From assembly GCF_028751195.1 (NCBI RefSeq), contig NZ_CP066784.1, positions 4,030,001 through 4,094,000 of the forward strand: a stretch of 64,000 nucleotides of DNA. The letters run 5' to 3'. The translations under genes were made by a program, and so were the position numbers. The notes below the pieces were generated by a model that was not told where the DNA came from, searched no databases, and was given only the letters and a program-made list of their open reading frames with translations. Of this stretch, positions 62,260 through 64,000 are shown piece by piece (the stretch's first letter is position 1; every line of letters begins with the position of its first letter). This DNA comes from Alicyclobacillus sp. ALC3 (lineage in GTDB: Bacteria; Bacillota; Bacilli; Alicyclobacillales; Alicyclobacillaceae).

Positions 62260-62668
62260 AACTGGGAAGTAAGCTGGGCAGCCGCCGGTGCAGTGTCGAA
62301 AGGCCGCACGGGAGGAAAGTCGGAGCTCCGCAGGGCAGGGTGCCGGATAACGTCCGGCGGGAGCAATCCTAGGGAAAGTGCCACAGACATGTAGACCGCC
62401 GATGGCCGCTACGCGGCACAGGCAAGGGTGCAACGGTGCGGTAAGAGCGCACCAGCGGGTTGGAGACAACCCGGCTAGGTAAACCCCACCCGGAGCAAGA
62501 CCGGATAGGAGTGCACATGCGATGGCCCGTCGCGCACTCGGGTAGGTCGCTGGAACCGGCTGGCAACAGTCGGTCTAGATAGATGGTTGCCGCTCCACAG
62601 TGCGAGGCGCTTGCGCCGTTTGCAGCACAGGAGTACAGGACTCCGCTTACAGGCTTGCTTCCCAATGA
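62260..62668 (+). ncRNA. rnpB: RNase P RNA, type A-like
   Basis: This is the catalytic RNA that removes tRNA 5' leaders. Stem P1 is perfect: GGGAAGTAAGC (62264-62274) with GCTTGCTTCCC (62653-62663). The conserved GAGGAAAGTC lies near 62311, and CAGGGTGCCGGATAACG and ACCGCCGATGGCC follow. GGTGCGGTAAGAGCGCACC forms a full hairpin near 62434, and TAGGTAAACCCCACCCGG-type and TAGATAGATGG blocks follow. The run from CCGCCGATGG to GGTAAACCC is very like the E. coli type A molecule, whereas B. subtilis has type B. The last third resembles the Bacillus form. The length of about 405 nt is normal. Confidence 0.93.
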
Positions 62669-62952: not shown

Positions 62953-63195
62953 GTGAGCGAACATTGTGAACGGCACCATCATCACCATCATCACCACCAC
63001 CACCGACGCGCTGTGGAGGTGGTTGTCGACCCCAAGATTCGGAACGTGGATAGGCAGGCACAGGCGCAGTTTCAGGCACAGCTAGAGGCACAGCGGCAGC
63101 TTCAAGCTCAATTCCAAGCACAAGCACAAGAGCAATTGCAATTTGAGGCTCAGCTGCAAGCCCAGCTTCAAGCAATTGCCAGGTTGCTCGGCTAA
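62953..63195 (+). CDS. Poly-His, (Gln/Glu)-x repeat small protein, copy 1
   Basis: An 80-residue protein of no family I recognise. Residues 8-17 are ten consecutive histidines. A short link (V-E-V-V-V-D-P-K-I-R-N-V-D-R) leads to residues 35-74, exactly twenty dipeptides with Gln or Glu in every odd position and mostly Ala, Leu or Phe in the even one. It ends I-A-R-L-L-G. Such alternation would put polar and apolar side chains on opposite faces of a beta strand, and the His run could bind metal. These are inferences. GTG 62953 has TGGAGGG upstream. A paralogue follows 23 bases later. It could be a spore-surface or other structural protein. There is no signal peptide. Confidence 0.75.
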   Translation: MSEHCERHHHHHHHHHHRRAVEVVVDPKIRNVDRQAQAQFQAQLEAQRQLQAQFQAQAQEQLQFEAQLQAQLQAIARLLG

Positions 63196-63218: not shown

Positions 63219-63449
63219 ATGAGTCATCATGAGTCGCATCACACGAAGCCTTATATTAAAGTTCATGTTCGTCCAGACATCGTGAACGAAGACAGCCAGG
63301 CACAGGCGCAGCTCCAAGCCCAAATTCAGTTGCAGCAGCAGCTACAAGCTCAGTTAGAAGCGCAAAGGCAGCGCCAAGCACAACTTCAGGCGCAGATCGA
63401 AGTACAGCTTGAGGCAATTCTTCGAAGAGTTACAGCTGTGATTGGCTGA
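63219..63449 (+). CDS. His-rich, (Gln/Glu)-x repeat small protein, copy 2
   Basis: A 76-residue paralogue of the preceding gene. The head is HHESHH instead of a ten-His run. The shared link is V-x-V-x-P-D-I-x-N-x-D, and residues 27-66 again form exactly twenty (Gln/Glu)-x dipeptides. The end is I-L-R-R-V-T-A-V-I-G. AAGGAGG lies upstream of ATG 63219, so translation initiation is strong. The two genes probably share a transcript and may form a mixed assembly. The function is unknown. No sporulation promoter was recognised with confidence in the 190 bases before copy 1. Confidence 0.75.
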   Translation: MSHHESHHTKPYIKVHVRPDIVNEDSQAQAQLQAQIQLQQQLQAQLEAQRQRQAQLQAQIEVQLEAILRRVTAVIG

Positions 63450-63588: not shown

Positions 63589-63617
63589 TTGCAATGCTGT
63601 TCAATGGATTCTAAAAT
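63589..63617 (+). promoter_or_regulatory. SigA-type promoter of the c-di-GMP riboswitch RNA
   Basis: TTGCAA (63589-63594), 17 bases and TAAAAT (63612-63617). The predicted start near 63624 is 24 bases before the aptamer P1 stem. Confidence 0.65.
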
Positions 63618-63647
63618 ACATACAATTAGGAAAATTAGAAATGTCTC

Positions 63648-63735
63648 ATGGCAAACTAGGGGAAACTCTGGGACGCAAAGCCACGGATCTAAGGGGGTTC
63701 ACGTATGTGGACGCCTATGAACGCCGGGTTGCCAT
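63648..63735 (+). promoter_or_regulatory. Cyclic di-GMP-I (GEMM-I) riboswitch aptamer
   Basis: The aptamer is closed by P1 ATGGCAA (63648-63654) with TTGCCAT (63729-63735). Inside are the conserved GGCAAAC, a GAAA tetraloop with its stem, GGGACGCAAAGCC, GGATCTAAG, and the second helix with the 3' GCCGGGTTGCC. These match the GEMM-I consensus (for example Vibrio Vc2) in order and spacing. It senses the second messenger c-di-GMP. No GGDEF or EAL gene is in the window. Confidence 0.9.
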
Positions 63736-63770
63736 TTCTTGATCCACGGCATCAGCGTGGCTTTGCACAG

Positions 63771-63798
63771 GCAATCCGGACTCGGGTTGCTTCTTTTT
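63771..63798 (+). terminator. Riboswitch expression-platform terminator
   Basis: GCAATCCG (63771-63778) pairs with CGGGTTGC (63783-63790) around GACT, followed by TTCTTTTT. The 8-mer CGGGTTGC also occurs in the 3' strand of P1 (63725-63732), and GGCAATCCGG (63770-63779) can pair with CCGGGTTGCC (63724-63733) over ten bases. Ligand-bound P1 and this antiterminator are therefore mutually exclusive, which predicts termination when c-di-GMP is bound. Confidence 0.85.
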
Positions 63799-63823
63799 GT
63801 GATTTCAGGAGGTACGCGGAAGT

Positions 63824-63853
63824 CAAAATTGAGGCTGCTCCAAAGGAGCAGCC
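63824..63853 (-). terminator. Terminator of the minus-strand peptide gene
   Basis: On the minus strand GGCTGCTCC (63853-63845) pairs perfectly with GGAGCAGCC (63841-63833) around TTT, followed by TCAATTTTG. It begins eleven bases after the stop codon of the small peptide gene and lies back to back with the riboswitch terminator. Confidence 0.8.
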
Positions 63854-63863
63854 AAAGCTTGCG

Positions 63864-63980
63864 TTACATCGACGATACCACCATGGGTTCAGGAGGGAGA
63901 TTTGGCTTTATCGGTAAGATAGCGAGTGACGATGCCGATAGGAACAGCAGAACTGCGATCACACTTGTGACTGCCTTCAT
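63864..63980 (-). CDS. Small secreted-type peptide, Phr-like
   Basis: A 38-residue reading frame with a strong ribosome binding site (GGGGGTGA, five bases before ATG 63980) and a terminator right after the stop. It starts M-K-A, has a hydrophobic core (VTSVIAVLLFLSASSLAIL) like a signal peptide, and a short polar, proline-rich tail (PIKPNLPPEPMVVSSM). The size and layout are those of Phr pheromone precursors, which are exported, trimmed and re-imported to inhibit Rap-type regulators. A TGA at the very edge of the window (64000-63998) could be the stop of an upstream rap-like gene, which would be decisive but is not visible. A small membrane protein is the alternative. Confidence 0.6.
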   Translation of the reverse strand: MKAVTSVIAVLLFLSASSLAILPIKPNLPPEPMVVSSM

Positions 63981-64000
63981 GGTTTCACCCCCTTTCTTCA

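Follow-up and report, generated by a model that had tools for sequence, protein, structure and literature searches.

A c-di-GMP-I riboswitch as the probable leader of an RRNPP-like receptor gene with a divergent peptide gene in Alicyclobacillaceae

Some riboswitches act through antisense RNA, for instance the SAM riboswitch of Clostridium acetobutylicum ubiG and, in Listeria, the cobalamin riboswitch of pocR. Divergent peptide genes occur in the Rgg-SHP systems. For c-di-GMP, a survey predicted 152 riboswitches acting in antisense, among them c-di-GMP-I examples close to genes of transcription regulators, such as an XRE regulator gene in Paenibacillus (PMC9943018). Antisense c-di-GMP riboswitches as such are therefore already predicted and not new; the term excludon, for the Listeria type, is cited in the same work (PMC9943018). 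Among the RRNPP(A) regulators, of which NprR-NprX and PlcR-PapR are the nearest to the locus described here, surveys find that the propeptide gene adjoins the receptor gene (PMC9765709). In our literature search, which reached only a minority of the subscription journals, no paper connected an RRNPP receptor gene with a c-di-GMP riboswitch and none named RRNPP together with Alicyclobacillus; the only paper that matched the combined query concerns the flgB riboswitch (PMC6414698).

The present locus lies at the end of a 64,000-nucleotide window (the whole stretch of DNA analysed, G000:C1:4030001-4094000) of the 5.07-Mb genome of Alicyclobacillus sp. ALC3 (G000), and the reading was extended past the window end on L007 (window position = L007 position + 60000). 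In window coordinates, the riboswitch (+, 63640-63736) is followed by a peptide gene on the opposite strand (-, 63864-63980) and by a receptor gene (+, 64030-65343). Judged from the sequences compared, these parts, their order, the coding nature of the peptide gene and the recurrence of the arrangement in two genera are established. The features are as follows.

63589..63617, plus strand: sigma-A promoter of the riboswitch transcript, TTGCAA-17-TAAAAT (promoter scan; conservation in G001)
63640..63736, plus strand: c-di-GMP-I (GEMM-I) aptamer (Rfam RF01051)
63675..63685, plus strand: GCAAAGCCACG, aptamer core segment and anti-aptamer 5' partner (pairs with 63756-63766)
63724..63733, plus strand: CCGGGTTGCC, aptamer 3' strand and antiterminator 5' strand (helix with 63770-63779)
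63756..63766, plus strand: CGTGGCTTTGC, anti-aptamer 3' strand (pairs with 63675-63685)
63768..63799, plus strand: intrinsic terminator, AGGCAATCCGGACTCGGGTTGCTT hairpin then TTCTTTTT (hairpin energy)
63770..63779, plus strand: GGCAATCCGG, antiterminator 3' strand and terminator 5' arm (helix with 63724-63733)
about 63833..63853, minus strand: terminator-like hairpin of the peptide gene, GGCTGCTCC..GGAGCAGCC (sequence)
63864..63980, minus strand: 38-aa exported (pro)peptide MKAVTSVIAVLLFLSASSLAILPIKPNLPPEPMVVSSM, candidate pheromone (RBS GAAAGGGGGTG; codon test)
63981-64000, plus strand: final window bases ahead of the receptor gene
64030-65343 (L007:4030-5343), plus strand: HTH_3-TPR receptor, 437 aa, NprR/PlcR/Rap-like (RBS GACGGAGGCG)

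As in other c-di-GMP-I riboswitches of RF01051, an aptamer is joined to a terminator-type platform, but here the leader would serve a peptide-receptor-like regulator, and a divergent peptide gene lies within it on the opposite strand. The receptor shares with NprR and PlcR the HTH_3 domain and a TPR superhelix of NprR size, and a small exported peptide gene likewise lies alongside; unlike in NprR-NprX and PlcR-PapR, this gene is divergent, overlaps the receptor leader and encodes a PPxP-type tail. In ubiG, pocR and the 152 predicted c-di-GMP cases, an antisense RNA carries the riboswitch, which is positioned at the target gene's 3' end. The riboswitch RNA of the present locus would also run antisense to a neighbouring gene, but it would at the same time lead into the mRNA of that gene's partner. 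The excludon offers a similar geometry, with the long leader of one gene lying antisense to its divergent neighbour; at this locus, however, a ligand-sensing RNA would control the leader, the gene pair presumably encodes a receptor with its signal, and any antisense effect is hypothetical.

An earlier sequence-only reading of the window had placed a riboswitch with its own promoter, a duplicated CGGGTTGC, a terminator and a minus-strand peptide ORF here, and all of them were recovered in the same places. The aptamer matches the RF01051 covariance model with 67.0 bits against a cut-off (gathering score) of 35 (E 6e-11), and c-di-GMP is its predicted ligand. It is one of 17 c-di-GMP-I riboswitches of the genome; other copies stand before EAL, GGDEF, sortase, TadE/G-like and FapA-domain genes. 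The promoter at 63589-63617 has a counterpart, TTGCAA-17-TAGAAT, in MAG YS1.bin19 (G001), a relative with 92% identity, where it was kept while the flanks diverged. Moreover, it is the sole strong promoter match within 720 nt upstream of the receptor gene in the present genome.

The antiterminator proposed in that reading, built from the two copies of the repeat, also stands: CCGGGTTGCC and GGCAATCCGG form a 10-bp helix that was matched by 3 of 5000 shuffles when contiguous helices were compared, whereas shuffles ranked by energy alone did not discriminate. The tract TTCTTTTT follows at 63791, directly after the terminator stem. Despite differing sequences, a helix of 8-10 bp between the aptamer 3' strand and the terminator 5' arm is found in all five genomes with this layout, namely the present genome, G001, G004, Alicyclobacillus mengziensis (G025) and A. 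ferrooxydans (G019). At the decision point, the minimum-energy fold contains the antiterminator in four of the five, and the predicted folds make aptamer and expression platform mutually exclusive in each genome. Since each of the five uses one strand both as aptamer 3' strand and as antiterminator strand, ligand binding would favour termination, in agreement with the OFF-type platform suggested earlier, and these models point to a switch in which c-di-GMP turns the receptor off.

The opposite polarity, with c-di-GMP promoting read-through, for instance through a ligand-free RNA of the present genome that prefers an anti-aptamer together with the terminator, is unlikely in light of this shared strand, although the folds of this genome lend it some substance. 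Indeed, the exact 11-bp anti-aptamer helix between GCAAAGCCACG and CGTGGCTTTGC is improbable as a chance match and forms the ligand-free minimum-energy structure at the decision point (-51.3 vs -50.0 kcal/mol for the antiterminator), while the full-length ligand-free fold carries the terminator (-65.0 vs -56.2 kcal/mol with the antiterminator forced). This helix, however, occurs in the present genome alone and is broken in G001. Because of the anti-aptamer competition and the terminator in the ligand-free fold, the strength of read-through is not predictable from these folds, and read-through in this genome may be low.

The same reading had regarded the riboswitch as an orphan and had suggested extending the sequence past 64000, where a plus-strand gene with this leader would speak against its proposal. 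Such a gene was indeed found: the receptor gene starts 30 bases beyond the window end, 294 nt after the aptamer and on the same strand, and the order is kept in five genomes. The minus-strand partner gene that had been presumed upstream of the peptide gene was rejected, as this region is occupied by the plus-strand receptor gene; the probable partner is this divergent receptor. An N-terminal extension of the receptor through a plus-strand frame open from 63739 across the peptide gene was likewise rejected: the receptor frame closes just ahead of the receptor start in A. mengziensis and A. ferrooxydans, so that the open frame is only the peptide gene's shadow.

The receptor carries an N-terminal HTH_3 domain (40.1 bits) followed by a TPR superhelix (TPR_12, 41 bits), both above the cut-off and in the arrangement expected of RRNPP receptors, and an adjacent small exported-propeptide gene, also expected of these systems, is present at 15 of 15 orthologous loci. 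Sequence similarity to PlcR (2qfc, E 6e-6) is restricted to the HTH region. An AlphaFold model built from 12 orthologues (mean pLDDT 91) aligns with NprR 5dbk along 330 residues at Z 24.9 and an rmsd of 3.9, with Rap 4gyo at Z 24.5 and with Rap proteins overall at Z 20-25. LGN, an unrelated eukaryotic TPR protein, outscores the RRNPP structures slightly (Z 27.9), mostly in the TPR part. The modelled fold is thus consistent, short of proof, with the assignment as an RRNPP-type peptide receptor.

Between the terminator and the receptor gene, no strong promoter match was detected in any of the five genomes, though a weak promoter may lie within the peptide gene. We consider it probable that the riboswitch constitutes the leader of the receptor gene, so that c-di-GMP halts transcription ahead of the receptor and low c-di-GMP lets it be made. 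Transcription would start from the promoter 63589-63617. An aptamer that folds with c-di-GMP in place would retain the 3' strand 63724-63733 for itself; the terminator would then form, and the transcript would end at about 63799, as an RNA of about 175 nt. At low c-di-GMP, the segment 63724-63733 would instead pair with the terminator 5' arm, and transcription would continue across the reverse complement of the peptide gene and then enter the HTH-TPR receptor gene at 64030.

By this geometry, the read-through RNA would be antisense to the entire peptide gene in all five genomes. The antisense RNA proposed in the sequence-only reading is therefore retained in part, as this RNA would first of all be the mRNA leader of the receptor. 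Since the leader covers the whole peptide gene, the open switch could also reduce peptide output through colliding polymerases or RNA pairing, in an excludon-like manner, a possibility suggested by the geometry. It is quite unlikely, on the other hand, that the riboswitch mainly drives an RNA silencing the peptide gene while the receptor uses its own promoter further down. Such a function would fit the complete antisense overlap and the frequent prediction of c-di-GMP antisense riboswitches, including the Paenibacillus case directed at an XRE regulator gene (PMC9943018), but the next gene on the riboswitch strand is that of the receptor, which has a ribosome-binding site and no strong promoter match separating it from the riboswitch, and a coding-gene leader accounts for the layout with fewer assumptions.

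The minus-strand peptide gene called in that reading is genuine according to its codon changes. Between the present genome and G001, it has accumulated 5 synonymous and 0 non-synonymous changes, and two further species pairs gave ratios of 15:8 and 7:1, which amounts to 27 synonymous and 9 non-synonymous changes in the three pairs pooled (P ~4e-9). The terminator that had been described for this unit is present as a terminator-like hairpin, GGCTGCTCC..GGAGCAGCC, at about 63833-63853; a different, longer hairpin occupies this position in G001. Neither Pfam nor NCBIfam assigned a family to the peptide, and the minus strand of the present genome yielded no strong sigma-A or sigma-H promoter match for its gene.

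A divergent small gene is located about 20-80 bp from the receptor start at all 15 orthologous loci of the family. Its products have a charged start and a hydrophobic stretch, the features by which the export signal was assessed by eye, and a C-terminal PPxP-type motif (PPEPM, PPDPM, PPTPM, PPRPM, PPTPF, PPTPL or PPTPA, with VPEPM at one locus). A divergent peptide gene also lies beside two more distant receptor paralogues, one of them within the present genome. Since a PPxP peptide gene sits divergent at every orthologue, the 38-aa exported peptide is most likely the partner of the receptor, and the two could form a binding pair. Within Alicyclobacillaceae, the divergent peptide-receptor pair seems to constitute an RRNPP-type family that had not been described before. 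In addition, the first 30 receptor codons show 1 synonymous change between the present genome and G001, against an average of about 6 elsewhere, which hints at an overlapping element; two other species pairs give no clear sign of it.

Comparison of the five genomes revealed that the order riboswitch (+), peptide (-), receptor (+) is shared by two genera whose receptors are only 37-41% identical, with 236-312 nt between aptamer and receptor. Each genome has a strong promoter match directly before the riboswitch, of the sigma-A type in the present genome and G001 and of a sigma-H-like type (AGGAAT-N-GAAT) in G004, A. mengziensis and A. ferrooxydans; in two genomes, an additional sigma-A match is located some way ahead of the riboswitch. 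Only 6 strict sigma-H-like sites occurred in 202 kb of scanned strand, and five of these belong to the peptide-receptor-riboswitch system, three before riboswitches and two before a small gene that follows the receptor gene. On the receptor tree, possession of a riboswitch requires two changes, and the aptamers of the two genera are placed in different parts of the aptamer tree, a weak tree of about 90 nt. Two separate acquisitions are the simplest reading of these trees; one old gain with several losses may be the alternative.

In ten of the 15 orthologues, the receptor gene lacks a riboswitch immediately before it and can therefore be expressed otherwise. At one such pair (G002), a c-di-GMP-I-type riboswitch (L068:4825-4924) lies 1.6 kb upstream, before a subtilase-like peptidase gene (L068:5081-6226). 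It is highly improbable that the riboswitch stands beside the pair through a chance rearrangement and plays no part in receptor expression: the 17 copies in the genome, the ten pairs lacking one and the G002 arrangement would suit such a bystander, but promoter, aptamer (95% identical between the present genome and G001) and a still-pairing terminator/antiterminator were kept despite sequence change, and the second genus has an identical layout with a different aptamer lineage and promoter type. For a given gene, a riboswitch would fall by chance into the 400 nt upstream with a probability of about 7e-4 per genome.

A more tentative extension of the receptor-leader reading is that the locus represents a riboswitch-gated excludon, arisen twice in Alicyclobacillaceae, in which one termination decision would give opposite outputs for the receptor (sense) and the pheromone gene (antisense), so that cells would send while c-di-GMP is high and listen once it is low. 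If the receptor-leader reading holds, the second messenger c-di-GMP would act directly, at the level of RNA, on peptide quorum sensing in a Gram-positive bacterium, and the sessile or motile state of a cell would determine its ability to hear its neighbours.

Several other elements were observed near the locus and at its paralogue. After the receptor gene, a second small gene (65472-65666, L007:5472-5666, plus strand) encodes an exported protein of 64 aa and has a sigma-H-like promoter. Similar genes occur only in the two genera with c-di-GMP-I riboswitches at or near the locus (G000, G002, G004, G025, G019); being absent from other genera, it was rejected as the pheromone gene in favour of the divergent peptide. 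Between rnpB and the riboswitch, at 62953-63195 and 63219-63449, lie genes for two small proteins with Gln/Ala-rich repeats, one of which contains a run of ten His; the corresponding position of G001 holds no match to them, and the loci of other relatives yielded no good one. The window also contains RNase P RNA (62266-62665, 285.6 bits) and 6S RNA (1760-1942, 98.4 bits). Finally, the paralogous receptor of the present genome (L063:3573-4883, G000:C1:885587-886861) has its own divergent peptide, ending ..NSLPPLPVKGIVKLS, and 2.2 kb beyond it, on the same strand, a c-di-GMP-I riboswitch stands before an EAL-domain gene.
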